Shown: piece after piece, positions 8,352 to 64,000 of the stretch
Position numbering within the stretch: the stretch's first letter is position 1
Layout of the letters: each line of letters begins with the position of its first letter
NCBI GenBank assembly: GCA_016196065.1
Contig: JACPYL010000010.1
Coordinates: forward strand, 248,001-312,000
Direction of reading: 5' to 3'
Source: Acidobacteriota bacterium
Lineage (GTDB): Bacteria; Acidobacteriota; Terriglobia; Terriglobales; Acidobacteriaceae
Length of the DNA: 64,000 bases
Translations under genes and position numbers: made by a program
Notes under the pieces: generated by a model
What the model was told of the DNA's origin: nothing
The model's input: only the letters and a program-made list of their open reading frames with translations
The model's database searches: none

Positions 8352-9100
8352 ACGATCCTCCTGTTCGTGGTCACCTTCACGGCAGGTGGCAGTTCCTGCA
8401 AGTCCGCTAATACCGGTTGATTTTCGCCCCGGGAATAGTTGCGTTCCTGTTTCTGGTCTGGTTGTCCACTTGTGTCGTTGTTGTTCTTGCGGTTCTGGTT
8501 TGGTTTCGCGGGTTCAGCTTCCGCCGGAGTTGTCGACCGTTTGAACTCGCGCACCCTGGATTCGATTTCGTAAACGAAACGAATGTTCTCGTAAAACTTC
8601 ACTACTTTGCCTTGCGTGGTGTAATACGACCGCTTGATGGCGGAAGGCCGCACGTCGATCTTCGCCATGTCAGACGGCTTCACGCCCGCTGCACTCAAGG
8701 CCAGCGAGAATGAAAAGAAAATCATTCCGAACGACATCACGAAGCGCGGCTGCCGAACGAATGTCGACGTCGGCGTGATGATCGAATCCCACCACTGCCG
8801 GACGCGTTCGCCCGTGCTGCGACGTTCTGGCGAGTTGACCAACAAACGCGCACTCGAAATTCCGCTGGTCGACGCCAGAATATTGTGGAGAAGGTGAACC
8901 GGCGGTTCGACTTCTTCGAGCGACTTCAGCAACTGCTGCCCGACCAGAGCGTCAGCGAGGAGAGGTCCGCAAAGCTTGCAGATCCTTCCATGCGCTTCGA
9001 AGCTCTGCTTTTGAGAGCCGCTCAGCTGGCCGTCGAGCGCTTCGCTGAGGAGGGCCTCAAACTGGCTGCACTCGATCCCGTGTTTGGTTTCGCCTGGCAT
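8348..9100 (-). CDS. Anti-sigma factor with zinc-binding (ZAS) domain
   Basis: This 250-residue protein has an N-terminal zinc anti-sigma motif H-GRI-C-KL-C (His37, Cys41, Cys44) with an upstream Cys11 as possible fourth ligand. A single hydrophobic helix is at about 119-139, followed by an outside domain of about 110 residues that is rich in Asn, Gln, Lys and Pro at its end (PNQNRKNNNDTSGQ). The family holds its partner ECF sigma factor at the membrane until a signal releases it. The start overlaps the sigma-factor stop by one base (TGATG), so the two are translated together. The low-complexity tail is odd, and the sensory ligand is unknown. Confidence 0.85.
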   Translation of the reverse strand: MPGETKHGIECSQFEALLSEALDGQLSGSQKQSFEAHGRICKLCGPLLADALVGQQLLKSLEEVEPPVHLLHNILASTSGISSARLLVNSPERRSTGERVRQWWDSIITPTSTFVRQPRFVMSFGMIFFSFSLALSAAGVKPSDMAKIDVRPSAIKRSYYTTQGKVVKFYENIRFVYEIESRVREFKRSTTPAEAEPAKPNQNRKNNNDTSGQPDQKQERNYSRGENQPVLADLQELPPAVKVTTNRRIV

Positions 9101-9699
9101 CAGATCACCTGCCTGTATGTACGTTGAAGTAGGCGTGCAAGTTCCGCTCGCCCCCGATTAATTCTTGACTTCACGGTCCCTTCCGGGACCTTTAAAGCGC
9201 CTGCAATTTCTTTGTAATCCATATCTTGCAGATCCCGCAGGATCACGGCCTCGCGCAGCTCCGGAGACAGCTTCTGGAGGGCCTGGTGGACCGCTTCCTT
9301 CGTTTCCCGGCTTTGGACCTGCTCATGGGCTGATTTCGAGGGGTCCGCAATCTGCGCGGAGAGCGGCTGGGCGTCCTCGTGCTCGGAAGGAGCCGTATCC
9401 AGCGAGTCTGTCATCCGGTCTTGCTTGGTCTTGCGGAAGTGGTCGACCAGCAGGTTGCGGGTTACGGTCGTAACCCAGGTCATGAACGCGCCCTTGCTCG
9501 CGTCATAGGAGCCAAGGGTGCGATACATCTTGATGAATACTTCCTGGGTCAGATCCTGGGCGTCGTCGGAGGTCCCTGCGAAGCGGTAGCAGATGTTGTA
9601 GATGCGCCGGTGGTGGCGCTGAACGATGTCCTCCCAGGCAGCCGAGTCGCCGGCAATGCAGCGACGGACCAGCAATCCGACGACCTGAGCCTCGTCCAC
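9100..9699 (-). CDS. ECF (sigma-70 family group 4) RNA polymerase sigma factor
   Basis: This is a 199-residue protein from GTG 9699. Region 2 (YNICYRFAGTSDDAQDLTQEVF) and the WVTTVTRNLLVDHFRK segment bind core polymerase and the -10 box. Region 4 (LSPELREAVILRDLQDMDYKEIAGAL then EGTVKSRINRGR) binds the -35 box. An upstream in-frame GTG at 9777 would add 26 residues, but GGAG at 9708-9711 has good spacing to 9699, and the putative -10 box is only 7 bases from 9777. It heads the operon with its anti-sigma factor and two membrane/envelope proteins, so it probably runs an envelope response and its own transcription. Confidence 0.92.
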   Translation of the reverse strand: MDEAQVVGLLVRRCIAGDSAAWEDIVQRHHRRIYNICYRFAGTSDDAQDLTQEVFIKMYRTLGSYDASKGAFMTWVTTVTRNLLVDHFRKTKQDRMTDSLDTAPSEHEDAQPLSAQIADPSKSAHEQVQSRETKEAVHQALQKLSPELREAVILRDLQDMDYKEIAGALKVPEGTVKSRINRGRAELARLLQRTYRQVI

Positions 9700-10059: not shown

Positions 10060-12720
10060 CTACTTGCCAGTGCCGTTGAGTTGCACGATCTGCGTACCCA
10101 CTCCGTCCTTGATGGACATGGTCGCGCTTCGCGCCCCCGTGACCGTGGGCAGGAATGTCACCGTGATGGTGCAGTCCCAGCCTGCCTTGCGGCTCGATCC
10201 GCAAGCTGACTTCGCGGTGAAGTTGCCCGGATCGGCGCCCCCAACCGTGACACTGTTGATCGCCAGCGACGTCTTCTGGTTATTGGTGAGAATCACAGCG
10301 TCGGCCTTCTTCGCGCCGACGGTGACCGATCCGTAGTTCACGTTGAGCGGCGAGACGCTGACCGGTTGCGTGCTGTTCAGCATGACGGAAATGAAGCTGG
10401 GGACGTTCGTGTTGACGAGTGCGACGTCCGGCATGCCGTCGCCGTTGAAATCGGCAACAACGGCGCTGGTGGCTGCCCGTCCGGTATAAAAATTCTGGGC
10501 AGTGGTGAACGTGCCGTCGCCATTTCCCTGGAGAATCGCCGGGCCCGCGGGCTGGTTGTTGCCGACGACGTAGGGAATGATTACGTCGAGCTTTCCATCT
10601 CCATTGAGATCGACCACGACCGGGACTTGAGGTGCGCTCATCGATAGACAATTCAGTGTGCCCGGCGTAAACGTCCCGTTGCCATTCCCCTTCAGGAACG
10701 CGTAGCCGAGATTGTTGTTGGTGCAGCCGTTGGCGCCCGTAGTGACGAGCACGTCGGCCTTTCCGTCCTTGTTGAAATCCGCGGCGGCCAGCGTGATTGG
10801 AAAATATGGCGTGGCGGTTTGGATGGGTGCGCCAAATGTCCCATTGCCATTCCCCGGCAGGACGAAGACGTCGCTGACATTGCCCTTGGTCGCCACTGCG
10901 ATGTCCATCTTGTCGTCGCCGTTGAAGTCGGCGAAGGCGACAACGTTAGGGGTTGGATTGATGGAGTGAATGCTGGTGATCAGCGTTCCTGAGTTGTAGG
11001 TGCCGTTGCCTTTATTCAGCAGAACGCTGAACGTGCCGTCTGCATTTTCCGTGACGATGTCCAGTTTGCCATCGCCGTTCAAGTCAGCCAGATGAACGAC
11101 CTCCTCCTGCGTGGTTGCGCCGGTGGAATAGTAGACAGCTTTCTTGAATTTGCCTGTCCCCAATCCAAGCATCACGGCTACGGTGTTGAGTTGGCATCCG
11201 CCGCCGCCGTTTCCGTTGAGCGTCGCAACCAGGTCGGCTTTGCCGTCACCGTTCACGTCGCCGGTGGCAACTGACCAGACGAAATTCGCGGTGCAGGTGC
11301 TGGCGGTCGCGAAGGTTGTCGTTCCGGGCGCGCCATTGGAACTGCCGAGGTTGATCCCGATTTTTCCGGCGGCGCTCCCGGCCAGGGACTGCGCGATATC
11401 CGGCAAACCGTCGCCGTTGAAATCCGCGGTCACGAGGTTGCCGGCTTGATTGATGCCGGTGAAGTTGTAAAGCTGGCTGGTCTGGAAACTGCCATCGCCG
11501 CGGCCGAGCGACACCGTGATCGTATCGAGGCCGTTGCTCTCCAGCAGATCGAGCGTGCCGTCGCCGTTGAAATCGCCCATCGCGACGAGAAAATTGCTGC
11601 AATCGTTGCAGGCTTGTAGCGGGTAAGCGGGTCCGGCGGTGAACTTGCCTTTGGCTTTGCCGAAAAACGTGAACACGTTGCCAAATCCATCGGGAACAAT
11701 GATGTCGAGTTTCTTGTCGTTGTTGATGTCCGCCAGCACAATGTTGTTGGTGGGGTTGAGACTCACGGTACCGAGCGTTCCATTGACTGCGAACGTACCG
11801 CTCCCCTGATTGAGATAGACAATGGCACTGACACTACTGCCCGTGATGACCACATCTGGTTTCTTGTCGCCGTTCACGTCGCCGATGGCGATGTCGTTGG
11901 CGGCAAAGACACCTGCGATTCCAACAGGATAGTAGGTAGGTGTTCCAAATGTGCCGTTGCCGTTGTTCAGTAGAATGGTCATCCCGCCACCCGTGGTGGC
12001 GTTTGTATTGAGAGCGAGATCAGGTTTGTTATCGCCATTCAGATCGCCGACCGCCAGTCCGCCACAGTTGATGATGCTGCCGCCGCAAACTGCGGTGTAG
12101 GCCACGGGCGGCTGAAGGCTGCCATCGCCTTTGCCCAGAAAAACAAACACGCCGTTCTCCGGAGTCATCGCGACGAGATCGAGCTTGCCGTCGCCGTTTA
12201 CGTCGCTGGCCACAATGCTGTTCGGTCCTGGATTGAACGTGCTGCTGGCGGGCGCCGAATACGTCGCACTGAACGTTAGGCTGCCGGCGCCATTCCCCAG
12301 AAAAATATGAACCTCTGAGTTGGCGCTAATTTCACTGACCGCCCACACGGCTACGTCGAGCTGGTGGTCACCGTTAAAGTCGCCTACTGCGATCGCCTCG
12401 GGAAAAATATTGGGTGCCGCGATGTTGAGAGTGATCGGCGTTTGGAACGTGCCGTCCCCTTTCCCCAACATCACGTTGAGATTGGAACCGGTATCGAGGT
12501 TGACCACATCTAGCTTGCCGTCGCCGTTGAAGTCTCCGGTGGCGACCGCGATGGTTGAGGGGCAACAATTCGGCGTCGCAGCGAAAGTTGTGGGCGACGG
12601 GAATGCGATGGGAAGAGTTTGTGCCTGCGCCAGAACTCCGGCGCACATCACGATAGCAGCGATGCTGATTGTCCTGGTCAGCACGCGCAAATACTTGGTC
12701 TGCAGATCATTCGAAGTCAT
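10060..12720 (-). CDS. Secreted VCBS/FG-GAP repeat protein
   Basis: This 886-residue protein has a signal peptide (hydrophobic residues 16-32, cleavage likely after AQA). About a dozen repeats of 55-65 residues follow, each with a calcium-binding loop of the DFNGDGKLD type (first at about 67-75, also DLNGDNKPD, DVNGDGKAD, DFNKDGKAD). These build a seven-bladed or longer beta-propeller like integrin alpha chains. The last 110 residues form a separate Ig-like 'choice-of-anchor' domain (SVSPLNVNYGSVTVGAKK, then CTITVTFLPTVTG). It is probably an extracellular adhesion or carbohydrate-binding protein; no catalytic motif is seen. It is transcribed alone and ends at the terminator at 9919-9955. Confidence 0.88.
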   Translation of the reverse strand: MTSNDLQTKYLRVLTRTISIAAIVMCAGVLAQAQTLPIAFPSPTTFAATPNCCPSTIAVATGDFNGDGKLDVVNLDTGSNLNVMLGKGDGTFQTPITLNIAAPNIFPEAIAVGDFNGDHQLDVAVWAVSEISANSEVHIFLGNGAGSLTFSATYSAPASSTFNPGPNSIVASDVNGDGKLDLVAMTPENGVFVFLGKGDGSLQPPVAYTAVCGGSIINCGGLAVGDLNGDNKPDLALNTNATTGGGMTILLNNGNGTFGTPTYYPVGIAGVFAANDIAIGDVNGDKKPDVVITGSSVSAIVYLNQGSGTFAVNGTLGTVSLNPTNNIVLADINNDKKLDIIVPDGFGNVFTFFGKAKGKFTAGPAYPLQACNDCSNFLVAMGDFNGDGTLDLLESNGLDTITVSLGRGDGSFQTSQLYNFTGINQAGNLVTADFNGDGLPDIAQSLAGSAAGKIGINLGSSNGAPGTTTFATASTCTANFVWSVATGDVNGDGKADLVATLNGNGGGGCQLNTVAVMLGLGTGKFKKAVYYSTGATTQEEVVHLADLNGDGKLDIVTENADGTFSVLLNKGNGTYNSGTLITSIHSINPTPNVVAFADFNGDDKMDIAVATKGNVSDVFVLPGNGNGTFGAPIQTATPYFPITLAAADFNKDGKADVLVTTGANGCTNNNLGYAFLKGNGNGTFTPGTLNCLSMSAPQVPVVVDLNGDGKLDVIIPYVVGNNQPAGPAILQGNGDGTFTTAQNFYTGRAATSAVVADFNGDGMPDVALVNTNVPSFISVMLNSTQPVSVSPLNVNYGSVTVGAKKADAVILTNNQKTSLAINSVTVGGADPGNFTAKSACGSSRKAGWDCTITVTFLPTVTGARSATMSIKDGVGTQIVQLNGTGK

Positions 12721-52133: not shown

Positions 52134-52868
52134 CTAGTCCAAGACCGGCCGTGGAGAGTAAGGGATGGGTTTTCCCGCAATGACTGCTGCGGGATTGCTC
52201 TCCACAAGGGCCGCCGCGTACTCGACTCCAACCAGTTCAGCCGCCAGATCGCGAGCTTCGGAAAGGATAGGAACCCGGCGCCTGGTGTCGTGTGCATCGG
52301 TGGCGAGGAAATGAACGGCCGAGCGATCCAGCAGCCAGCGTGCGATGATCTCCGGACGTTCGCCCCATGATCCGGTCAGCGCTGAGGCGGTGACTTGGAC
52401 CAGGCAGCCTTGCTCCGCCCACTCCAGGACGCGCTGCGGCGTCTGCTGCAGAATCGGGTTGCGTTCGGGATGGGTGAGGATCGGCCGCAGCCCACGATCG
52501 CCCAATCGGACAAAGCAATCCGCAATTTGCGCCGGAATACTGAAGTTGCTGAGTTCGATCAACAGGTAATTCGTATCGCCAATCGTGTAGTTGTGCGGCT
52601 GCTCCAGCGCGCGCTCCAGATTGTCGAAGGAAAGATGGAAGTCGCAACCCAGGCTCAGCTTTAACGTCGGCCCTATTTTGGCCTGGAGCTGTCCCAGAAT
52701 CGCCTGCAGATAGCTGCGGTCGTACGCGTAGCGATCGTTCGCGTGGGGCGTCGCCACCATGTGGGTAATGCCATCTGCCGCCGCCATGCGGCACATTTCC
52801 ATGGCGGCGTCCCAGGACTTGGGACCGTCGTCAACCTCGGGCAGGATGTGAGAGTGGATGTCGAACAC
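52134..52868 (-). CDS. CpsB/YwqE-type PHP-fold protein-tyrosine phosphatase
   Basis: This 244-residue protein has the metal-binding motifs of the CpsB/CapC family: DIHSHILPEVDDGP at the N-terminus (His-x-His), VATPHAND, LGCDFHLSF, LTHPERNP and ATDAHDTRRR. The Mn-dependent family dephosphorylates tyrosine kinases that control exopolysaccharide chain length. No capsule genes are adjacent, and the gene is divergent from the RiPP cassette. GTG 52868 is the start: GAGAGAGCAATC upstream and the motif begins at once, whereas the upstream frame adds a non-conserved sequence. Confidence 0.87.
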   Translation of the reverse strand: MFDIHSHILPEVDDGPKSWDAAMEMCRMAAADGITHMVATPHANDRYAYDRSYLQAILGQLQAKIGPTLKLSLGCDFHLSFDNLERALEQPHNYTIGDTNYLLIELSNFSIPAQIADCFVRLGDRGLRPILTHPERNPILQQTPQRVLEWAEQGCLVQVTASALTGSWGERPEIIARWLLDRSAVHFLATDAHDTRRRVPILSEARDLAAELVGVEYAAALVESNPAAVIAGKPIPYSPRPVLD

Positions 52869-53112
52869 GATTGCTCTCTCAATTCTAGAACAGAAATGCA
52901 CGATCGAGTTGGCCGGCGGCGCCGGCATCGAGTCACGGTCTGCAACAGGTGATCAAGACGCGAAGCGCACCGCTCGAAGCGCTTCCGATGTGTTGGGAAT
53001 CGCACATCTCCCTGTTATTGCAACTAGTTACTGATAAGACACCTTCCGCGATTCGCCGCTTGGCACCATCCACTCGTTCTGTGAAAGTAAACATTAGGGA
53101 TCTCTCACTTTC

Positions 53113-53433
53113 ATGGATATACAGCCGTTGGCGATTCCAGCAACTCAGTTGAGCGTGTACCGCCGCTCAAACGCGGTCGTGTCCCGGAAAATATCGGGTG
53201 AAACTCTGGTCGTTCCGATCCGAGGCAAGGTCGGGGATCTGGCCTCAATTTACAGCTTCAACGAATCAGGATCCGTGTTGTGGGCAGCGCTGGAAAAGCC
53301 CCGTTCGCTTGAGGAACTGGCTTCCGTTCTCTGTCAATCGTTCGATGTGGAACAGGGTGACGCCTGGCGGGATGCGGATGAGTTTGTGCAGGAAATGCAG
53401 GCAGCAGGATTGCTATCGGCCGTGGAGAGCTGA
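53113..53433 (+). CDS. PqqD-like RiPP recognition protein
   Basis: This 106-residue protein fits the PqqD superfamily: YRRSNAVVSRKISGETLVVPIRGK at residues 16-39 gives the winged RRE beta sheet, then IYSFNESGSVLWAAL and SLEELASVLCQSFDVE. Such proteins bind the leader of a ribosomal precursor and present it to a radical SAM enzyme, as PqqD does for PqqA and PqqE. The family is also known outside PQQ synthesis. This gene heads the cassette; the enzyme starts 142 bases downstream and the precursor follows. No pqqC or pqqE is present, so it is not a PQQ operon. AGGGA is 13 bases before the start. Confidence 0.85.
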   Translation: MDIQPLAIPATQLSVYRRSNAVVSRKISGETLVVPIRGKVGDLASIYSFNESGSVLWAALEKPRSLEELASVLCQSFDVEQGDAWRDADEFVQEMQAAGLLSAVES

Positions 53434-53461
53434 CTCCCTATTTGGGAGAGGGATCGTAACC

Positions 53462-53522
53462 GTCGTTGGTCGTTAGTCGCTAAGTGATTGCGATCTGCAG
53501 CTAGCGACTATCGACCGCCGAC
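53462..53522. repeat. Heptad-periodic inverted repeat array K, inside the RiPP operon
   Basis: Left arm 53462-53488 (GTCGTTG, GTCGTTA, GTCGCTA), right arm 53502-53522 (TAGCGAC, TATCGAC, CGCCGAC). The arms can form a hairpin of about 21 pairs with mismatches. It lies in the 142-base gap between the pqqD-like and radical SAM genes, 54 bases before the enzyme start, and could set their expression ratio. Confidence 0.75.
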
Positions 53523-53575
53523 ATTTTCAGGGGGAGTGGAATGGGGCCATCAGTTGGGCTGGGCAGAGGGCAGCG

Positions 53576-54838
53576 ATGAATACCCAGTCTTACGGAGCGT
53601 TCAGCCAGTCGCTTCATCAACGTTATTTCGGGGAGCGTGCGCCTCTCGAAGTATCGATTGAAGTGACGCGTCGCTGTCCCCTGGAATGCCAGCATTGCTA
53701 CAACAATCTGCCGATGGGTGATCTGGCTGCTCGCAATCGTGAACTCACCAAAGAAGAGCATTTTCAACTGATCGATCAACTGGTGGATGTCGGTGCCTTC
53801 TGGCTGCTGTATTCGGGTGGAGAAATATTTGCGCGCAATGACTTCCTCGAGATCTATACCTACGCGAAGCAAAAAGGATTCCTGATCACGCTCTTTACGA
53901 ATGGAATCCTGATCAATGAACGGATCGCCGACTATCTATTGGAATATCCGCCGTTCGCGATTGAGATCACTCTCTACGGACGCACCAAGAAGACGTACGA
54001 AGCGCTCACACAGATTCCAGGATCCTACGAGCGTTGCCTGCGCGGGATCGAGTTGCTGCGCGAGCGGGGATTGCCGTTGAAACTCAAAACCGTCCCCACC
54101 ACGATCAACAAGCACGAAGTCTTCGCGATGAAGCGCTTTGCCGAAGATGATCTGGGGTTGGAGTTCAAGTTTGATGCGCAGATCAATCCGCGGATTGATT
54201 GCTCGCAGAGTCCGCTGGCAGTGCGGCTTTCGCCGGAAGAAGTGGTTGCGCTCGACATGCACTCGCCGAAAGCGGCTGAGGAATACCGGACGCTGGTGGA
54301 AAAAGATCTGGCGCGTCCGCCGGCGCTGGCTGAGATCGACACCGTGTATTTCTGCGGCGGCGGGATGAAGTCGTTTGCCATCGATCCCTACGGGCGCATG
54401 AGCATCTGCGTAATTTCCCAGCAGGACACCTACGACATCCGTCAGGGAAGCGTGCGCGAAGGCTGGGAGAAATTCCTGCTGGCCGTGCGTACGCAGAAAC
54501 GGGCGCGTCCCACCAAGTGCGTGCAGTGCAAGATTCAGTCATTGTGCGGAATGTGTCCCGCGAATGGCGAACTTGAGAATGGCGACAAGGAGAGTCCGGT
54601 CGCGTTTCTTTGCGAAGCGGCTCATCTGCGCGCCGCCAGTCTTGGCCTGGAAACTCCGTCCCACGGCGATTGCGAATTTTGCACCGGAGCAGGAGAAGTG
54701 CGAGTCCGCGAAGCGGCGGCGCGAATCCGGTCGGCAGAAACGAACGTCGAGGATTGGATGGAATCGGTACCGGTTTTCCCGGTTCTCAACCAGGCTGCTC
54801 CCCGAACCGCCTGCAGTGGCTGCGGGACGGGACATTGA
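53576..54838 (+). CDS. Radical SAM/SPASM peptide-modifying enzyme
   Basis: This 420-residue protein has the radical SAM motif RRCPLECQHCYNN, with Cys34, Cys38 and Cys41 in the C-x3-C-x2-C [4Fe-4S] binding loop, followed by LLYSGGEIFARNDF (SAM-binding GGE). The C-terminal half is a SPASM domain with Cys260, Cys278, Cys315, Cys318, Cys324, Cys327 and Cys346. Four additional Cys (366, 369, 413 and 416) could bind a further site. SPASM enzymes make thioether (sactipeptide, ranthipeptide) or other C-C, C-S links in ribosomal peptides. Start ATG 53576 follows AGAGGG. Its product would be carried by the PqqD-like protein; its likely substrate, the peptide at 54852, lies 13 bases past its stop. Confidence 0.9.
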   Translation: MNTQSYGAFSQSLHQRYFGERAPLEVSIEVTRRCPLECQHCYNNLPMGDLAARNRELTKEEHFQLIDQLVDVGAFWLLYSGGEIFARNDFLEIYTYAKQKGFLITLFTNGILINERIADYLLEYPPFAIEITLYGRTKKTYEALTQIPGSYERCLRGIELLRERGLPLKLKTVPTTINKHEVFAMKRFAEDDLGLEFKFDAQINPRIDCSQSPLAVRLSPEEVVALDMHSPKAAEEYRTLVEKDLARPPALAEIDTVYFCGGGMKSFAIDPYGRMSICVISQQDTYDIRQGSVREGWEKFLLAVRTQKRARPTKCVQCKIQSLCGMCPANGELENGDKESPVAFLCEAAHLRAASLGLETPSHGDCEFCTGAGEVRVREAAARIRSAETNVEDWMESVPVFPVLNQAAPRTACSGCGTGH

Positions 54839-54851
54839 GGGCACGGATCGA

Positions 54852-55028
54852 ATGATGGAACTGAATCAAGAGCCCGGAATACCGAAGAAGCCCTACGAAC
54901 CACCTCGGGTGCTGGCGATCAACCTTCGCCCCGAAGAGGCGGTGCTGGGCAATTGCAAGATCGGTAGTTCGGCCGGGCCGGTGGCCGCGAGTTGCTCCAC
55001 CTTGCATTGCAGCACGATTGGATCTTGA
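54852..55028 (+). CDS. RiPP precursor peptide (58 residues)
   Basis: A 58-residue peptide; it has an N-terminal leader with KKPYEPPRVLAINLRPEEAV (residues 12-31), then Leu-Gly-Asn-Cys and a C-terminal core rich in Gly, Ser, Ala and Thr. Cys are at 35, 48 and 53; the last part is ASCSTLHCSTIGS. The KPY-x-x-P-x-V and LRPEEAVLG pattern is like leaders of PqqD-linked precursors, judged from memory, not from a search. GAGGG lies 10 bases before ATG 54852; a second ATG follows. It is followed by the P-loop gene after two bases. No double-Gly leader peptide is certain, though AVLGN could be one. Modification is not known. Confidence 0.82.
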   Translation: MMELNQEPGIPKKPYEPPRVLAINLRPEEAVLGNCKIGSSAGPVAASCSTLHCSTIGS

Positions 55029-55030
55029 AC

Positions 55031-55966
55031 ATGAGTCTTGCAGTCAACCATGGATGGATCGCAGACGGACTGGCCCCGAGTCTCCTGGCTCAGTATCGCA
55101 GCCGTTTCGCGGTGGCTGGGATCACGGTGAGCGTGCGCGGAGACACTCCGCAGTCGGTTGATCTAGGTCCGCAACTCCTGCCGTTTGCTTCCGAAAGTGA
55201 GCTTTCCGATATCGACTTACAGGTGGAGTGGAGCTCCACGATCGAGCCCGCTAGTGGGCGCGAACTGTTTCACTCCGGCTGCTTGTGGAGCGTCTACGAA
55301 TTCGGCGATGGCTTTCTGTTCGACTTCATCACGGAACGTCTTGGCCCCAGACCGTACAAACGATTGCTGGTCGACAGGAATTTTCAAACTGCGCGCGTCA
55401 TTCTCAATCAGGAATGCCTGACTTCGGAAGATGCCAGCCGTGCTTTGGAATACCCGCTGGACGAACTGTTGGTCACGCATCATTTGAGCCTGGGCCGTGG
55501 CGTCGAACTGCACGGCTGTGGCCTGGTTCGGGGGAACGGGGAATCGTTTCTCTTTGTCGGCCACTCGGGCGCCGGCAAGAGCACAACAGCTTGCTTGTGG
55601 ACGCAGCACGGTCCCACCGAAGTCCTGAGTGACGACCGCATCATCGTGCGGCGCGGCCCGACCGGAAATTTCATGATGCACGGCACCCCGTGGCATGGCG
55701 AGGCGGAATTTGCGTCTCCGAGTCGGGCTCCGTTGCGGCGAATCTTTCTTTTGGAGCATGGCCGCGAAAATCGAATCGAGCGGCTTTCGGCCAGCACTGC
55801 GGTTGGCGAATTGCTGGCGCGCAGCTTCACTCCCTTCTATCAATCGCGATTCGTGGATCCGGTGCTGGCGTTGCTCGAGGAATTGGTCGATACGCTGCCC
55901 TGCTACCGCTTCCAATTCGTTCCTCAACCGAGCGCAGTGGAGACAATCTGTGAGTTCCACGACTGA
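55031..55966 (+). CDS. HprK-like P-loop kinase-related protein
   Basis: In this 311-residue protein, residues 177-186 form the Walker A loop GHSGAGKSTT. LSDDRIIVRR (about 200-209) is the Walker B-like segment, and MHGTPWHGE resembles the HPr kinase C-terminal loop. The N-terminal half (about 60-150) is a separate domain with FGDGFLFDFITERLGP, probably a lid. Proteins of this type occur next to lasso, PqqD-linked and other RiPP genes; in one lasso system a homologue phosphorylates the peptide. Here it could phosphorylate the precursor. The ATG at 55031 lies two bases after the precursor stop; the next frame starts 17 bases before its stop. Confidence 0.82.
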   Translation: MSLAVNHGWIADGLAPSLLAQYRSRFAVAGITVSVRGDTPQSVDLGPQLLPFASESELSDIDLQVEWSSTIEPASGRELFHSGCLWSVYEFGDGFLFDFITERLGPRPYKRLLVDRNFQTARVILNQECLTSEDASRALEYPLDELLVTHHLSLGRGVELHGCGLVRGNGESFLFVGHSGAGKSTTACLWTQHGPTEVLSDDRIIVRRGPTGNFMMHGTPWHGEAEFASPSRAPLRRIFLLEHGRENRIERLSASTAVGELLARSFTPFYQSRFVDPVLALLEELVDTLPCYRFQFVPQPSAVETICEFHD

Positions 55967-58900
55967 GCAACGAGGCGATTCCGTATTGTTCGAGCAATTG
56001 AGCCGGGGACTGCTGTCCAGCGGCCATCATGTCCGTTTTCAGGCTCGAGGACGGAGTATGCTGCCTCTGATTCAGGATGGCGAAAATTTGCGTGTGGAAA
56101 GCGTACCGCCCAAGCGCCTTCGCGTCGGGGACATTGTGGTTGCAAAAACTCCACGCGGACTGCGCGCCCATCGCCTCATTTTCAAGGACCTCACCCGCGA
56201 TTGCTTCCTCACGCGCGGTGATGCCGGCCAGGAAAGTGATCCGCCAATTTCTGCGCAACACATTATTGGACGCGTTGTGCTCAGTACCCGGTCTCGCCTG
56301 CGAGCGCATCTTCACTTCTTAACCCAACGACTGATCAGGGAAGGGAGGCGCTGGCGCCGATCGCTGACACTGTTCGCGAGCGCCCTCGTACTCGTCGCCA
56401 GTTGCACCCTGCTGCAAGCGCAAGTCGTCTTCGATTCCGTTACCACGGGAGCAGCCCGGCCGAACACCGCGGGCAACACGAACATTACATTCGCTCATAA
56501 CACCGCCAACGTGGCCAACCGGCTGCTGGTGGTGGGCGTGTCGATGAATATCTCCGGCAACACCGGCGCGACCGTGACCGGCGTGACCTACAACGCCGTG
56601 GCGCTCACCAAGCTGGGTATTCACAACGATGCCGGCAACACGCGCAGGGTCGAAATCTGGTATCTGGTCGCACCCGCAGTTGGCAACCTGAATGTCATCG
56701 TCTCGGTGAACCTCCCGATTGCGGCACGCGTTGGTGTGACGGCGGGGGCCATGACATTTACTGGAGTGGATCAGACGCTCCCGCTCAGTGCGATGGTTTC
56801 GAACGACGGCGCGGCTGGAAATTTTTCTCAGCTTGATATTCCGAGCGGCACTAACCAGATCGTATTTGACACACTCGCGGCTGCGGCCACGTCCGCCATC
56901 ACCAAGGGTCCTTCGCAAACGCAACAGTGGAATCTGAACTCCACCAACAACGGCGCGTCCGACGTGCAAGGCTTTGGCAGCACCAACGTTGGGGCCGCCA
57001 GCGTTCCGATGTCTGAGACATTCAGTGCGGCGACGAACTGGTCGGTGGCGGGCGCTTCCGTGCAGCCTCTGCAGGCGGATGTTGGCGTCACGCTGGTTCA
57101 GAACGGCGCCGCCATGCTGGGCAACAATCTCACGTACACCATTACGGTTACCAACAACGGTCCAACAACGGCGACTGGTGTCACGCTCACGGACACACTC
57201 GCCGCCGGACTTGTACTAGTTTCCGCAACGCCCAGCCAGGGCAGTTGCTCGGGCACCGGTCCGATCAACTGCCCTCTCGGCTCGCTGGCCGGAGGCGCCA
57301 GTGCGACCGTGACCGTGGTGGCCAGTGCGGCGGCGATCGGTTTCTATGCCAATACCGCGTCGGTGACAGCGACGCAGCCCGATCTGAATACAGGGAACAA
57401 TTCCTATACCGCCGTGGGAGTCGTGCAGAGCAACACTTGCGCCAGTCCCGCCAATTTGGGGAATGGCGGAACCCTGGGCGGAGTGGTGAACACCTACTAT
57501 CCGGCGACGGCCAGTGTGACCGCGGGCACCGCCAATACGACGATTCCTGTGGGCACCGCGCGGGGCGCGGTGGCCACGATCGCAGCCGGAGACTTGCTGC
57601 TCGTAATGCAGATGCAAGACGCCAGCATCAACAGCACCAACACTGCCAGCTACGGCAACGGTGCAACCGGCGCAGGATTTACAACCATCAACAATGCGGG
57701 GAACTACGAGTTCGTCAAAGCAACCGGGCCGATCGCCGGTAGCGCGATTCCGATTGCCGGCAGCGGCGTCAACAGCGGATTGATCTACAGCTACACGATT
57801 GCTGCGGCCACCGGCACGAAGGGAAAGAGCACATTCCAGGTGATCCGCGTGCCGCAGTACGCCACGGCGTCACTCAGCAGCACCTTGACGGCTTCCGCGT
57901 GGGACGGGACAAGCGGCGGCGTGCTGGTACTTGACATCGCCGGAGCGCTCACTCTGAACAGCGCGACCGTCAGTGTGGATGGCTTGGGGTTCCGTGGCGC
58001 TGGCGCCCTGCAGCTAAACGGTGGCGTCGGCGGCGCGAACACTGACTATGTGCACACTTCCCCGGCAACCTATACGGGCACGGTTACTGCGGGTGTGGAC
58101 GGTGGCAAAGGTGAAGGCGCTGCTGGGACTCCGCTCTGGGTGCAGTCGGCAGGTTCTTTCCTGAGTACTGGAACGGACGGTTATCCGAACGGTGGTATGG
58201 CGCGCGGCGCGCCGGCCAATGCGGGCGGCGGTGGGACTGACGGCGATCAGGTCGTCAATCAGCAAAATGCGGGCGGTGGTGGCGCCGGCAATGGCGGAAT
58301 TGGCGGGTCCGGCGGCGACAGTTGGCAAAGCACCCTCGGCATCGGCGGCCTGGGCGGCGCTACATTCCCATCAACATTGAGCCGGATCAGCCTGGGCGGA
58401 GGTGGTGGCGGTGGCTCGCGCAATAACTCCGATGGCGACAATCAGGCAAGCAGCGGAGCCGCGGGCGGCGGCCTCATTCTCATTCGTGCGGGCAGCCTCA
58501 CCGGAACGGCCACGCTCACTGCAAACGGAGCCACTGCTTATGCCGGCACTCTCAATGATGCGGGCGGTGGTGGCGGCGCGGGCGGAACGGTGGTTGTCCT
58601 GTCTGCCGGGGGCGGCGAGGGTGGCCTTACCGTGCAGGCTCGCGGAGGAGTCGGTGGAAATTCCTGGACCGCGCAGGCGTTCGCACTCAATCAGCGTCAC
58701 GGACCTGGTGGCGGCGGCGGTGGCGGTGTAGTCTACCTGACCGGTGCTGGGTCGATCAGCGTAACCGGCGGACTCAATGGAATTACTTTGAATCCGGGCG
58801 TGGCTTACGGCGCGACCGCTGGCAGTAGCGGCATCGCCGTAACGAACGCACAAATTGCGCAGGGATCGGGCACGCAATCGGGCGCGGGCTGCATCCCGGA

Positions 58901-61900
58901 TATGGCCATCAGCAAGAGCCATGCGGGCAGCTTCGTTCGTGGCAGCGCGGTGACTTACTCGGTAGTGGTCAGCAACGTCGGCACCTTCGGCGCGAGCACC
59001 GGCCTGGTAACGGTGAACGATACGTTGCCTCTGGGCGTCGTTCCCAGTTCAGCCAGCGGCGCAGGATGGAGTTGCGCGGTTGCTCAGCAGACCGTTAGCT
59101 GCATCCGGGCGGACGCACTCGCCGCCGCCGCGGTCTATCCGACGATCACCATCAATGGAACAGTCAGCCAGTCGGCTCCGAACACTGTGGTCAACAGCGC
59201 GACGGTTTCCGGTGGTGGCGAACTCAATCTCCTGAACGACACGGCGACCGATGTTGCCGCTTCCGTCACGTCAGTCTCCGATCTGGTGGTCGCGAATTCT
59301 GGATCACCGAATCCGGTGATAGCGGGCAACAACATTACCTATACGCAAACGGTCACCAACAGCGGGCCGAGCGACGCAACCGGCGTTACGTTTGTTGAAA
59401 CGATCCCCGCGAACACGCTGTTGCAGACCATCACAGCTCCGGCGGGTTGGGTCTGCAGCAATCCTGGGCAAACCGGAACGATTGTTTGCACGAACGCGGA
59501 TCTGGCGCCTGGCACGCCCGCGGTCTTTACGATTGTCGTGAAAGTGAATGTCGGAACACCGAACGGAACGGTGATCACGGACACCGTAAGCGCAAGTTCA
59601 GGCGTTTCCGATCCGACAGCGACCAACAATTCTGCGACCGTCACCACGATCGTTGGCACGACGGCGCAAGCCGATCTTTCTATCACCAATGCGGCATCGC
59701 CCAATCCAGTAACTGTCGGCAACAACATCACCTATACGCAGGTGGTGACCAATACCGGATCGGCGGCGGCCACCACGGCGACGTACTTCGATACGGTGCC
59801 TGCCAATACGACGTTTCAAGCCTACACATTCCCGGTTGGATGGAGTTGCTCCACGCCGATTGTGGGCGGCACGGGCAATGTCACCTGCACCAATCCAAGT
59901 GTTGCGGCGGGCAGCACCGGCAATTTCCAACTGCAGGTGAAAGTGAATGTCGGCGTGGCGGGAGGAACCGTCATCACTGACACCGCTACGGTGGGTGCTG
60001 CGAACGATCCCAACGCGGGGAATAACAGCGCGACCGTCACCGACGTGGTCGCAACGGCGACGCAGGCCGACGTGACGTTGAGCACCACGACGACGCCATC
60101 GGGATCGGTGCTGTCCGGGGACAATCTCACTTACAACCAGGTGATCACTAACAACGGCCCGGCTACGGCCACGTCGTTGAGTTTCACCGAGGCCACGCCC
60201 GCCAACACCACGTTCCAGTCGGTAATACCGCCTGCTGGATGGACGTGCGTTACACCTGCGGTCGGGGCAACGGGCACGGTGACTTGCACGGCGGTCAGCC
60301 TGGCGGCGGGATCGGTTGCGAACATCAGCATGACGGTCAACGTGAACGCGGCGACAGCGAACAATACGACGCTCACGGCGACTTCCTCTGTCACATCGGC
60401 GACCAGCGATCCAAACGCCGCAAACAACACGACGACCGTAAACACCACTGCTCTAGCTGCAGTGAATTTGACGGTGACGAACTCCGGTGCGCCTTCTCCC
60501 ATCACGGCCGGTGCCAACATCACCTACACTCAAACAGTCGCCAATAAGGGACCGGGCAACGCTTCAACCGTAAGCTTCTCCCAGACCGTCCCAGCAAATT
60601 CTACGTTCGTTTCAGGCACGACTCCGCCAGGGTGGACTTGTACATTCCCCGCCGTGGGCGGCACGGGCAATATCAATTGCACGATTCCGACACTCGCTCC
60701 GGCTACGACAACGAACTTCCAGGTAGTCGTGAAAGTGAATGCGGGTACCCCGGCCGGCACGATTATCGCGGATACCGCTACCGTGACCACGACCACCCGG
60801 GACACTGTGCCCGGAGACAATTCCGTAACGGTCAACATCGCGGTCGGAACCGCCGGCCAAGCCGATCTCCGAGTGACGAACGCAGGCACGCCCGATCCGG
60901 TGACGGCTGGCAACAACATTACTTACACGCAAGTCGCGACCAACGGTGGTCCCGGCACTGCGACCGCTGCGACATTCACCGGGTCGACTCCTGCCAACAC
61001 AACATTCGTTTCGTTACCGACTCCTGCTGGATGGTCGTGTACTACTCCTGCTGTGGGCGGAACTGGCGCGATCACGTGCAACATTGGTTCGCTGGCCAAC
61101 GCGGCCACCGCCACATTCGTACTCACGGTGAAAGTGAACAGCAACACTCCCGTGGGGACCCTGATTACCGACACCGCCGCGATCAACTCGATCATCACGC
61201 CGGATCCAAATCCAGGCAACAACAGTGCCAGTTCCACCGTTGCAGTGGGGACCAGTGCGGATCTGTCGATCACGAATTCCGACACCCCTGATCCGGTGAT
61301 TGCCGGCAACAACATTACGTACACGCAAGTGCTCACCAATCCCGGCCCAAGCAACGCTGCGAATGTGACATTCAGCGAAACGATTCCAGCGAACACGAAT
61401 TTCCAGACATTTACTCCGCCTGTCGGTTGGGCCTGCAACACCATCCCGGTTGGCGGGACGGGAACGCTCACTTGCACGATTGCCAGCCTCGCGCCGGGGA
61501 CCACCAACTTCCCGGCTGCGGTTCAGGTCAATGCAGGTACGGCCGCGGGAACGACGATCACCGATACGGTCTCAGTCAGTTCCTCCACGGACACCAATAC
61601 GGCGAACAACACGGCCACCACGACCACGACGGTAGCGACTGCTGGGCAAGCCGATCTCGCAGTGACGAACACGCCCAGCGCCAGCAGCGTCCCGGCAGGC
61701 TCGAACATTACGTACACGCAGACGGTTACGAACAATGGGCCCGCGGCCTCCAACACTCTGACCTTCACGGAGACGATCCCCGCTAACACAACGTTCCAGT
61801 CCATAGCGGCGGGTGCATGGGCTTGCTCGACTCCAGCGGTCGGCGGCACGGGCACGGTCTCCTGCACGCTCGCTACGTTGGCTGCGGCTGCGAGTTCGCC

Positions 61901-64000
61901 CATCTCGCTGGTCGTGCAGGTGAACGCGAGCACGCCCTCGGGCACAGTTATTTCGGACACAGCATCGGTGAGCGCGGCGACAAGCGATCCGAATGGGAGC
62001 AACAACAGCGCGACTGCGACCGTCACAGTCGGCACTGGAACCAGCGCCGACGTCTCGATCACGAAGTCGGCATCCCCCAGTCCGGTGAATCAGGGCAATC
62101 TGCTGACCTACACGCTGATCGTTACCAACAACGGACCTGCCAGCGCGACCAACGTGACCGCCGTTGACGTGTTGCCGTCATCGCTGAAATTCATTTCGGC
62201 GACCACCAATGTCGGGAGTTGTTCGCAGGCAGCCAACACCGTCACCTGCCAGCTCTTGACGATGGCGAACGCGGCGACCGCCACCATCAGTATCGTGGTT
62301 ACGCCTCTGAGTTCGACGGTCGTAACCAACTCGGCGATGGTGACTGCCGATCAGACCGATGGTACTGCCGGAAACAATGTCGCTAGTGCGACCACGCTGG
62401 TCACGGCTCCCACAGGTATTCATCTGCAATCGTTGACCGCCGAGGCAACTTCCCAGGGCGTCGTAATGCGCTGGAAGACGGCGGGAGAACTGAACAATCT
62501 CGGCTTCAATGTGTATCGCGAGCAGGATGGCGAACGCGTGCGCCTGAATCCCACGCTGGTGGCGGGATCGGCTTTGATGATGCGCGGCTATCTGGAAAAA
62601 CATGCCGGTAAGAGCTACGTGTGGATCGATCCATCGGCCAGTCCGGGCAGTTCTTACTGGCTGGAAGATGTGGATCTCAATGGGGAGCGCACGTTCCACG
62701 GCCCGGTGACCGCGAGCCTGACAGGATTTTCGGCGCGCGCTGTTGCCTCGCCGACCATGAGTGAATTTGCATCGCGTACGGCGACCGCTGCTCCTGCGAG
62801 TCGAGTGGTCGAGAATGCGCAGAGACTGGGTGCGCCTGCACCCGGGCAGTCGGACCTGCAATTCGATCTGGCCGCGCATTTCGCGGTCAAGATCATGGTT
62901 GACCACGAAGGCTGGTACCGAGTTACGCAGCCCGAACTGGTCGCGGCAGGATGGAGTGGCAACGCTGATGCGAGCAAGCTGCGATTGTTCGCCGAGGCAG
63001 TGGAGCAGCCGATTCTGGTTACCGGCGCGGATAACGGACAATTTGGTTCGATGGCGGCGATCGAGTTCTACGCCACCGGCATGGACACGCCCTTCACGGG
63101 CACACGCGCCTACTGGCTGATTGCCGGAGACCAGGCTGGGTTGCGTGTCGGCAGCTTCAACGAATTGCCAAGTGGATCAAACTATCCGCAGCAGATTACG
63201 CAAACCGTGGAACTCCGCCAGCGCTCCACCTATTTCGCGGCGCTCATCAATTCTGCCGACAACAACTTCTTCGGCGCGCTGGTTTCGTCCACACCGATTG
63301 ATCAGGCGATTGCGACTCCGCATGTGTCGGCGAGCGGTAATTCGTCTCCGCGCTTCGAGCTGGTACTCCAGGGCGTTGGAGACGGCGTACCACACAACGT
63401 GAAGGTCGCACTGAATGGTCTCGACCTCGGACGCATAGCGTTCTCCGGACAGACGCAGGGCAAACTAGTCGTGAACCTGGCGCCAGGTTTGCTGCTGGAT
63501 TCAAATACGGTGACGCTCACCGCGCAGGACGGCGACAGCGATATCAGCCTGGTAGACCACATCACCATTACCTATCCACGCAGCGTCGCTGCGGACGACG
63601 ATCATCTCAGGCTTACGACGCGAGCCGGTACGCCGTTGCAGATTGCGAATTTCCAGGAAACGACGGTCCGCGTCTTCGACATCACGGCGGCCACAAAGCC
63701 CGTGGAATTGGCGACACGCATGGTGTCGGGTGGTGACGGTTCTTACGCGGTGCAGGTACAAGTGCCCTTCTCGCCTTCTGGCAAACATACGCTTCTTGCG
63801 CTCGGAGCGAGCCAGATCGCCAAGGCGGCGCAGTTGGTGGCGAACCAGCCATCGCAGTGGCACAGCCCGCAAGCGGGAGCCCAGGTCGTTGTGATAGCGC
63901 ATCCATCGCTTGCGGATGGGATTGCTCCGCTCGCCGATCTACGCCGTCAACAGGGCCGCACAGTCTCGGTCGTTCTTACAGACGACATCTATGACGAATT
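55950..64000 (+). CDS. Giant fusion: S26 peptidase-like domain, DUF11 repeats, start of a C25 peptidase (runs off the edge)
   Basis: One frame, open without a stop from GTG 55950 to the window end (2683 codons). GTG is preceded by GGAG and overlaps the kinase gene by 17 bases. Residues 1-112 resemble an S26 signal peptidase: GRSMLP (Ser36), AHRLI (His74) and GDAGQESD, the Ser-His type. Residues about 125-158 are basic then hydrophobic (SLTLFASALVLVASC), a signal-anchor or an internal secretory signal. Residues 159-375 are an adhesin-like beta domain, 376-490 a DUF11 domain, 494-975 a Gly-rich repeat, and then nine DUF11 repeats about 130 residues apart until about 2155. The end has a FnIII-like domain, then HPSLADGIAPLADLRRQQGR and DDIYDEF, the opening of a C25 (gingipain-like) domain. 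No internal ATG/GTG before the hydrophobic segment has a good ribosome site. Confidence 0.78.
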   Translation, partial: MSSTTEQRGDSVLFEQLSRGLLSSGHHVRFQARGRSMLPLIQDGENLRVESVPPKRLRVGDIVVAKTPRGLRAHRLIFKDLTRDCFLTRGDAGQESDPPISAQHIIGRVVLSTRSRLRAHLHFLTQRLIREGRRWRRSLTLFASALVLVASCTLLQAQVVFDSVTTGAARPNTAGNTNITFAHNTANVANRLLVVGVSMNISGNTGATVTGVTYNAVALTKLGIHNDAGNTRRVEIWYLVAPAVGNLNVIVSVNLPIAARVGVTAGAMTFTGVDQTLPLSAMVSNDGAAGNFSQLDIPSGTNQIVFDTLAAAATSAITKGPSQTQQWNLNSTNNGASDVQGFGSTNVGAASVPMSETFSAATNWSVAGASVQPLQADVGVTLVQNGAAMLGNNLTYTITVTNNGPTTATGVTLTDTLAAGLVLVSATPSQGSCSGTGPINCPLGSLAGGASATVTVVASAAAIGFYANTASVTATQPDLNTGNNSYTAVGVVQSNTCASPANLGNGGTLGGVVNTYYPATASVTAGTANTTIPVGTARGAVATIAAGDLLLVMQMQDASINSTNTASYGNGATGAGFTTINNAGNYEFVKATGPIAGSAIPIAGSGVNSGLIYSYTIAAATGTKGKSTFQVIRVPQYATASLSSTLTASAWDGTSGGVLVLDIAGALTLNSATVSVDGLGFRGAGALQLNGGVGGANTDYVHTSPATYTGTVTAGVDGGKGEGAAGTPLWVQSAGSFLSTGTDGYPNGGMARGAPANAGGGGTDGDQVVNQQNAGGGGAGNGGIGGSGGDSWQSTLGIGGLGGATFPSTLSRISLGGGGGGGSRNNSDGDNQASSGAAGGGLILIRAGSLTGTATLTANGATAYAGTLNDAGGGGGAGGTVVVLSAGGGEGGLTVQARGGVGGNSWTAQAFALNQRHGPGGGGGGGVVYLTGAGSISVTGGLNGITLNPGVAYGATAGSSGIAVTNAQIAQGSGTQSGAGCIPDMAISKSHAGSFVRGSAVTYSVVVSNVGTFGASTGLVTVNDTLPLGVVPSSASGAGWSCAVAQQTVSCIRADALAAAAVYPTITINGTVSQSAPNTVVNSATVSGGGELNLLNDTATDVAASVTSVSDLVVANSGSPNPVIAGNNITYTQTVTNSGPSDATGVTFVETIPANTLLQTITAPAGWVCSNPGQTGTIVCTNADLAPGTPAVFTIVVKVNVGTPNGTVITDTVSASSGVSDPTATNNSATVTTIVGTTAQADLSITNAASPNPVTVGNNITYTQVVTNTGSAAATTATYFDTVPANTTFQAYTFPVGWSCSTPIVGGTGNVTCTNPSVAAGSTGNFQLQVKVNVGVAGGTVITDTATVGAANDPNAGNNSATVTDVVATATQADVTLSTTTTPSGSVLSGDNLTYNQVITNNGPATATSLSFTEATPANTTFQSVIPPAGWTCVTPAVGATGTVTCTAVSLAAGSVANISMTVNVNAATANNTTLTATSSVTSATSDPNAANNTTTVNTTALAAVNLTVTNSGAPSPITAGANITYTQTVANKGPGNASTVSFSQTVPANSTFVSGTTPPGWTCTFPAVGGTGNINCTIPTLAPATTTNFQVVVKVNAGTPAGTIIADTATVTTTTRDTVPGDNSVTVNIAVGTAGQADLRVTNAGTPDPVTAGNNITYTQVATNGGPGTATAATFTGSTPANTTFVSLPTPAGWSCTTPAVGGTGAITCNIGSLANAATATFVLTVKVNSNTPVGTLITDTAAINSIITPDPNPGNNSASSTVAVGTSADLSITNSDTPDPVIAGNNITYTQVLTNPGPSNAANVTFSETIPANTNFQTFTPPVGWACNTIPVGGTGTLTCTIASLAPGTTNFPAAVQVNAGTAAGTTITDTVSVSSSTDTNTANNTATTTTTVATAGQADLAVTNTPSASSVPAGSNITYTQTVTNNGPAASNTLTFTETIPANTTFQSIAAGAWACSTPAVGGTGTVSCTLATLAAAASSPISLVVQVNASTPSGTVISDTASVSAATSDPNGSNNSATATVTVGTGTSADVSITKSASPSPVNQGNLLTYTLIVTNNGPASATNVTAVDVLPSSLKFISATTNVGSCSQAANTVTCQLLTMANAATATISIVVTPLSSTVVTNSAMVTADQTDGTAGNNVASATTLVTAPTGIHLQSLTAEATSQGVVMRWKTAGELNNLGFNVYREQDGERVRLNPTLVAGSALMMRGYLEKHAGKSYVWIDPSASPGSSYWLEDVDLNGERTFHGPVTASLTGFSARAVASPTMSEFASRTATAAPASRVVENAQRLGAPAPGQSDLQFDLAAHFAVKIMVDHEGWYRVTQPELVAAGWSGNADASKLRLFAEAVEQPILVTGADNGQFGSMAAIEFYATGMDTPFTGTRAYWLIAGDQAGLRVGSFNELPSGSNYPQQITQTVELRQRSTYFAALINSADNNFFGALVSSTPIDQAIATPHVSASGNSSPRFELVLQGVGDGVPHNVKVALNGLDLGRIAFSGQTQGKLVVNLAPGLLLDSNTVTLTAQDGDSDISLVDHITITYPRSVAADDDHLRLTTRAGTPLQIANFQETTVRVFDITAATKPVELATRMVSGGDGSYAVQVQVPFSPSGKHTLLALGASQIAKAAQLVANQPSQWHSPQAGAQVVVIAHPSLADGIAPLADLRRQQGRTVSVVLTDDIYDE

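Follow-up and report, generated by a model that had tools for sequence, protein, structure and literature searches.

A compact operon on the plus strand of a 64,000-nucleotide stretch of an Acidobacteriota genome (GenBank assembly GCA_016196065.1, contig JACPYL010000010.1, positions 248,001 to 312,000; the whole stretch is called the window, and coordinates are given within it) carries the genes expected for a pathway making a ribosomally synthesized and post-translationally modified peptide (RiPP). It opens with a PqqD-type RiPP recognition element (RRE) of 106 aa (53113..53433; PF05402, E 8e-13), which is followed by a putative peptide-modifying radical SAM/SPASM enzyme of 420 aa with two extra Cys pairs in its C-terminal tail (53576..54838; PF04055, E 5e-18), a precursor peptide of 58 or 57 residues, two adjacent ATGs being possible starts (54852 or 54855..55028), a predicted peptide kinase of the HprK/PEPCK fold (311 aa, 55031..55966), and a SipW/SEC11-like S26 peptidase domain (55950..56321, with a GTG start at 55950). 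From the enzyme onward the genes are spaced by 13 and 2 bases and then overlap by 17 bases. A preliminary description of this DNA had reported these five elements, their tight spacing and a RiPP pathway; all five are present by their Pfam and NCBIfam matches and coordinates, the spacing is exact, and the gene order, the leader motif and the catalytic motifs all fit such a pathway. The S26-like domain is also where it had been placed, but its gene continues: the domain is the N-terminus of a giant protein of 2,991 codons whose frame runs past the window end. A hydrophobic signal or anchor segment (residues 139-155, 56364..56414), followed by a QAQ-type signal-peptidase-like site recognized by eye, leads into the predicted exported part (56415..64000 in the window), which consists of DUF11 repeats and, beyond the window, a Peptidase_C25 domain; the gene ends at position 312925 of the contig (G000:C10:312925).

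The same arrangement recurs in related genomes. The enzyme was searched for in 298 genomes of the same order with a cassette threshold of E <= 1e-56; 28 of them match at this level, and another 40 have nothing closer than a paralogue with about 30% identity. A contig scan added 31 named loci. Once duplicate contigs had been taken out manually, the comparison covered 45 loci, one of them that of the window. The order PqqD, radical SAM enzyme, precursor, HprK-like kinase, S26 domain repeats among them wherever the contig is long enough, as the preliminary description had proposed to check in other Acidobacteriota. By tblastn, PqqD was found in 43 of the 45 loci (in L062 it was found by its open reading frame and by profile) and the precursor in 41; in L066, L067 and L080 a contig end cuts the enzyme gene, and in L064 a diverged precursor sits upstream of PqqD. 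In L044 about 2 kb of extra sequence separate the enzyme from the precursor. Homologous operons devoid of a conserved small peptide had been named beforehand as the finding that would speak against the pathway; instead the peptide is strongly kept, and the loci in which it was missed are explained by contig ends or one diverged peptide. Most cassettes come from Acidobacteriota, and related ones occur in Myxococcales and Desulfobacteraceae. The operon is a unit of its own, because the genes outside it vary: at most 9 loci out of 45 share any one of them, and those few have no identification. Among the eight genes flanking the window operon that were scanned with Pfam (two match nothing) there is no ABC exporter, in line with the earlier remark that none is visible.

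The precursor consists of a leader with the motifs YEPPRV and LRPEEAVLG-N-CK, a variable core with two Cys, and a C-terminal GS. In an alignment of 28 of the 41 precursors (alignment A1) the residues M1, Y14, P17, L24, E27, E28, A29, V30, L31, G32, C34, K35, C47, C52 and S57 are invariant. The preliminary description had placed three Cys near the C-terminus; this is true of Cys 47 and Cys 52, but Cys 34 comes after the conserved EEAVLG. The YxxPx[LVI] motif of the leader (Y14-V19, 54894..54911), which is expected to bind the RRE, has Tyr and Pro in all 41 precursors; EEA (E27-A29, 54933..54941), the predicted cleavage site EEA|VLG, has Ala in 41 of the 41 near loci; and Ser57 (55023..55025), the predicted phosphorylation site, is the sole invariant Ser or Thr of alignment A1. 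Over the 22 codons from the Tyr to the Lys, the synonymous value (pS) is 0.72 versus a nonsynonymous value (pN) of 0.16 in the 41 loci, and the precursor sequence is therefore judged to be under purifying selection. Because the precursor is also kept in 41 of 45 loci, the five-gene set is, by these sequence comparisons, beyond chance. The core is hypervariable between its fixed Cys, and only the Cys, some Gly and the last Ser are constant in the 41 precursors.

At E <= 0.001, a profile search of 299 genomes of the class and 347 of the phylum found precursor relatives in 16 and 39 of them, respectively, as well as in all five genomes behind L060, L062, L064, L065 and L067. Most genomes have one match, including each of the 16 class positives; two matches were seen in 4 of the 39 phylum positives and in the Myxococcales genome. 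All 79 distinct precursors end in Ser (GS in 66) and contain at least three Cys. YxxP is present in 78 of them and WxxP in one (L166); the boundary Cys lies at residue 21 from the Tyr or Trp, with Lys next to it, in 77; two further Cys follow in 75, and three or four in the other 4. Ser accounts for 16% of the remaining core residues. Neither Pfam nor NCBIfam has a model matching the window precursor, and when 28 precursors were scanned against NCBIfam and Pfam, the best matches (E 0.058 and 0.094) were both implausible. Two observations stand apart. One of the weak profile matches lies outside any cassette: a precursor-like peptide in L166 (minus strand, 9002-9139) with WEKP and PEEAVLLACK, around which an 18 kb stretch gave no PqqD, radical SAM, HprK or S26 match; this type of leader may serve a different system there. 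In L148, several radical SAM matches accompany a precursor that has no Lys after the first Cys.

Among solved chains, the PqqD protein comes closest to TbiB1 (5v1u), a lasso RRE, and to a PqqD-family chain from a lasso system (9x90). In the enzymes of 41 loci (four truncated ones were omitted), Cys 34/38/41 and Cys 260, 278, 315, 318, 324, 327 and 346 are kept in 41 of 41, and we take the last seven to be the SPASM pattern. Two CxxC pairs (366/369 and 413/416) follow the SPASM region in 40 of the 41, and the window enzyme ends in CSGCGTGH; PqqE is its best solved match. The sequence matches of the kinase are weak (AAA_33, E 2e-4; ScmC, E 2e-5). Its structure model (pLDDT 91.8) retrieves PEPCK first and HprK/P lower down in Foldseek, and H161, G177, G180, G182, K183, D201 and D202 are kept in 39 of 39 kinases. 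A motif H-G-G-G-K-S-D-D was reported for BsfK, and the cassette residues match those given there for lasso kinases (PMC10368454); on the modelled structure the protein is of the HprK/PEPCK fold with lasso-kinase catalytic residues. The S26 domain stays below the cut-offs of TIGR02228, the archaeal-type signal peptidase I (E 4e-9; 36.5 bits, cut-off 51.85), and of the S24 model (22.8 bits, cut-off 23.3), and its best solved sequence match is SEC11C. S36, H74 and D91 are kept in 36 of 36 domains and D97 in 35 of 36, which by alignment assigns to it the Ser-His-Asp of SipW/SEC11-type (S26B) enzymes.

In the window genome the S26 frame stays open through the hydrophobic segment, part of one long helix in the structure model, into the DUF11 repeats (E 1e-129) and the C25 domain (E 8e-86). 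Among the 39 loci with an S26 match, 32 have a frame that likewise continues across a hydrophobic segment, in some of them soon cut off by the contig end, and a spurious fusion is thereby ruled out. The remaining seven comprise contig ends (L031, L032), broken frames (L039, L042) and separate S26 genes (L059, L062, L064). Of the 13 fused frames that reach a stop, 11 end in C25; the exceptions are L060, with no C25 in its stretch, and L045, where C25 lies further along the contig. The nearest solved chains of the C25 domain are PorU (6za2, E 1e-17) and gingipain R (E 1e-16). C25 was found in 15 proteins; 13 of them show the His and Cys motifs YLGHG and FDCL, and the other two are cut inside the domain. 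We take YLGHG and FDCL to be the catalytic motifs, as in gingipains. The C25 domain thus resembles PorU and the gingipains in exceeding the Pfam cut-off and keeping both motifs, and differs from them in being fused to DUF11 repeats and an N-terminal S26 domain within a peptide operon.

C25 follows the cassette at the level of whole genomes as well. The window genome has a single C25 gene, that of the giant protein, and 14 control genomes have none. Strong C25 matches were obtained in 26 of the 298 genomes of the order, all of them among the 28 cassette genomes; C25 and cassette share a contig in 20 of the 26 and lie on different contigs in 6 (counted by eye). Fisher's test gives 2e-35 for this co-occurrence, a value that is overstated because the genomes are related. 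In G249, a cassette genome with no strong C25 match, the contig ends inside the giant gene. In seven more genomes of the order the C25 matches are weak (E 3e-23 to 4e-4), and none of the seven has a strong match to the cassette enzyme. C25 is fused in the class of the window; outside it, the gene is mostly separate and adjacent, either downstream of S26 (L133, L136-L139) or upstream of PqqD (L147, L150, L152, L167, L168). Precursor matches were used to fetch 40 loci (L150, L152 and L153 being contigs of L062, L064 and L063 again); 28 of these are well covered, and C25 lies on the same strand in 20 of the 28, made up of all 9 within the class and 11 of the 19 outside it.

The closest published relatives are the linear polyphosphorylated peptides (LPP; Nat Commun 2026, PMC13381572). 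Their systems likewise contain a discrete RRE, an HprK-like kinase, a SipW-like Ser-His-Asp leader peptidase, a YxxPxV motif, a conserved leader and a variable core. LppB, the RRE, binds YxxP; LppK phosphorylates Ser3; and LppS, which requires S29, H68 and D93, cuts behind FET, at a distance of 16 residues from the Tyr of the leader. A YxxPx[LVI]-type motif is known from lasso, LPP and PQQ (pyrroloquinoline quinone) leaders, and the LPP leader consensus is YxxPxVLxHQxIxFETxxS with the Ser3 phosphosite (PMC13381572). The preliminary description did not recognize its combination of genes as a characterized class; this holds for the radical SAM enzyme and the C25 protein, which were not found as additions to such a system in the literature searched, but not for the RRE, HprK kinase and SipW-like peptidase, which are published together as LPP. 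A word search of the main text of that report found no radical SAM enzyme, which the window cassette has. LPP systems come from Bacillota and have an MsbA-like transporter and a nucleoside triphosphate (NTP) transferase. Neither gene was found in the window operon or its eight Pfam-scanned neighbours, and neither was identified as recurring in the other loci, where the recurring genes were not scanned. FETxxS is replaced by EEAVLG here, and residue 19 from the Tyr, the position of the LPP Ser3, is Gly in 65 of the 79 precursors and Ser in 2. As the class is set out in the main text of PMC13381572, the cassette fails two of its defining features, the FETxxS motif and the transporter with the NTP transferase.

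Phosphorylated lasso peptides (paeninodin with PadeK, and the ThcoK, SyanK and BsfK systems) share with the cassette a lasso-type RRE, an HprK-like kinase with identical catalytic residues and, except for the BsfK type, a conserved C-terminal Ser, as far as these systems are covered by the reports cited here. They differ in that the window cassette has a radical SAM enzyme in place of a cyclase and B2 protease: no asparagine-synthetase-like macrolactam cyclase or B2 protease was found in the window operon, in the eight scanned neighbours or among the recurring genes, although no search aimed at them covered all 45 loci. The kinase and the enzyme also match ScmC (see above) and ScmE (E 1e-21) of the SynChlorMet cassette, but both scores are far under the curated cut-offs. 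The SynChlorMet cassette has two radical SAM enzymes, the window cassette one. A second, paralogous cassette was noticed in the window genome (L069:9400-15372, G000:C27), comprising S26, HprK-like, PqqD, radical SAM/SPASM and NTP_transf_5 genes and two ABC-transporter genes (the latter assigned by eye). Its precursor-like open reading frame (12150-12338, minus strand), read by eye as KKPYQKPAFRYERVFETLALACGK...SS and ending in ...VFETLALACGKVGSTTPQCQSSRKSS, carries the FET of LPP leaders. This second cassette has the same four protein types as that of the window, with an enzyme 30% identical to that of the window, and no C25.

We interpret the window operon as belonging to a RiPP class that has not been described before, in which an exported C25 protease is tied to maturation, and give this reading a probability of roughly 60%. 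Its basis is the observed gene order, precursor conservation, motifs, fusion and C25 linkage; the chemistry of every step, the positions of the cut and of the phosphate, export, and the function of C25 are all inferred. The PqqD-type RRE would bind the YxxPx[LVI] motif of the leader in the cytoplasm and offer the precursor to three enzymes, of which the radical SAM/SPASM enzyme most likely introduces crosslinks at the Cys of the core. The kinase would most likely phosphorylate the invariant C-terminal Ser, as PadeK does in paeninodin (PMC9266682); the phosphate is placed there by analogy with paeninodin, because the LPP phosphosite position is mostly Gly. The SipW-like S26 domain would take off the leader, most likely after EEA|VLG, a site proposed because LPP precursors are cut at residue 16 from the Tyr and 72 of the 79 precursors here have Ala at that position. 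Since this domain stands at the N-terminus of the giant exported protein, ahead of the signal segment, release of the peptide would take place at the site of C25 protein export. Once outside the cell, the C25 domain would be the dedicated partner of the peptide, most likely processing or attaching it there. The full sequence of events, in which a crosslinked and C-terminally phosphorylated peptide is freed at the membrane by the S26 head and then processed by, or attached through, the PorU/gingipain-type C25 domain, such that one polypeptide would combine maturation with protease export and need no ABC exporter, is a tentative proposal that is rather unlikely to be right in every part.

Several observations weigh against the proposed tie to the C25 protease or its details. 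The cleavage geometry is not universal, since residue 16 is Val in four, and Ile, Glu and Gln in one each, of the seven precursors without Ala. Fold matches of the S26 domain are modest, led by LexA and also including SpsB (Foldseek). The cassette genome G102 has no C25 match, an unfused S26 gene and a GH116 gene next to it. Outside the class, 8 of the 19 well-covered loci at first showed no C25. One of these, L135, gained it on extension and is the 21st of the 28 loci, and another, L166, has no cassette; C25 is also absent from L131 and L148, and from the four loci of one family (L142, L143, L145, L163), in which the fusion partner of S26 is a polysaccharide-export protein. The idea that the conserved Lys following the first Cys is simply a C25 cleavage site was ruled out, because CK is kept in cassettes where C25 is absent. 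The predicted reactions rest on sequence and analogy, and the crossing of the membrane by the peptide is left without an explanation.

That family bears on an alternative in which the cassette is a radical SAM-equipped branch of LPP or phosphorylated-lasso RiPPs tied to surface polysaccharide, the C25 protein being one of several exported S26 partners. We regard this as a real possibility, though an improbable one on balance. The four loci examined have S26 at the head of a Poly_export/SLBB protein, with the signal segment in between (in L143 the Poly_export domain is partial and under its cut-off), and two more genomes of the family have precursor matches outside these loci. The Poly_export/SLBB partner is presumably Wza-type. 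In L144 (4621-5655), S26 is fused to a GNAT acetyltransferase domain beside the same kind of precursor, and in the window a CpsB/CapC-type capsule gene (Pfam; 52134-52928, minus strand) adjoins the operon upstream. The RRE, HprK kinase and SipW-like peptidase are common to LPP, whose operons often sit in capsule loci (PMC13381572). Against a general tie to polysaccharide, the neighbouring genes change from locus to locus, and in the order of the window the C25 link is tighter than any polysaccharide link noticed, polysaccharide genes not having been counted.

The peptide might also be a regulator of C25, an inhibitor or pro-factor that silences the protease until export, and not its substrate. 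The close linkage of peptide operon and C25, the single precursor match in all 16 class-search positives and the hypervariable core between fixed Cys would agree with such a role. We nevertheless find it unlikely, as some cassettes have no C25 nearby, the phylum positives and Myxococcales genome with two precursor matches do not follow the pattern, and a leader peptidase together with a kinase exceeds the needs of a simple inhibitor. It is more doubtful still that the product is a bacteriocin of the sactipeptide or ranthipeptide kind, secreted and activated by C25. A radical SAM/SPASM enzyme and a Cys-bearing core would be expected of such a system, but no possible exporter or immunity gene recurs beyond 9 of the 45 loci, and none of the best 25 of the 67 NCBIfam models matching the enzyme reaches its cut-off. 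The Cys spacing of the precursor is, as we take it, unlike the SCIFF or subtilosin pattern. A pathway for a peptide-derived redox cofactor like PQQ or mycofactocin, for which the combination of PqqD, radical SAM/SPASM enzyme, small peptide and protease and the PqqE match of the enzyme might speak, is very improbable given a core that varies save for its Cys, some Gly and the last Ser, and PqqE and mycofactocin model scores far under cut-off.

Returning to the RiPP class tied to an exported C25 protease, text searches of the open-access literature, judged by titles and the starts of abstracts, showed no paper on this system among those listed, and open-access text searches for the leader letters and for SynChlorMet each gave no paper. 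In a word search of a 2023 review of RiPP leader proteases (PMC10885120), the words S26, S24, C25, C11, gingipain and signal peptidase were absent from the text searched. By analogy, the cassette suggests a RiPP class not found in print that works like LPP and phosphorylated lasso systems and has an unusual tie to an exported protease. It would unite three things not found together in the literature searched: radical SAM peptide chemistry, an LPP/lasso-type kinase with a signal-peptidase-like leader protease, and an exported C25 protease. An S26 domain that precedes the signal segment and has two kinds of exported partner suggests that the release of the peptide and the export of the protein are coupled in an unusual way. 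According to the LPP authors, it is not known what LPPs and paeninodins do (PMC13381572). If the proposed reading is true, the cassette would represent a class of RiPPs whose partner protein can be predicted, and the biological role of this class would be open to simple knock-outs.

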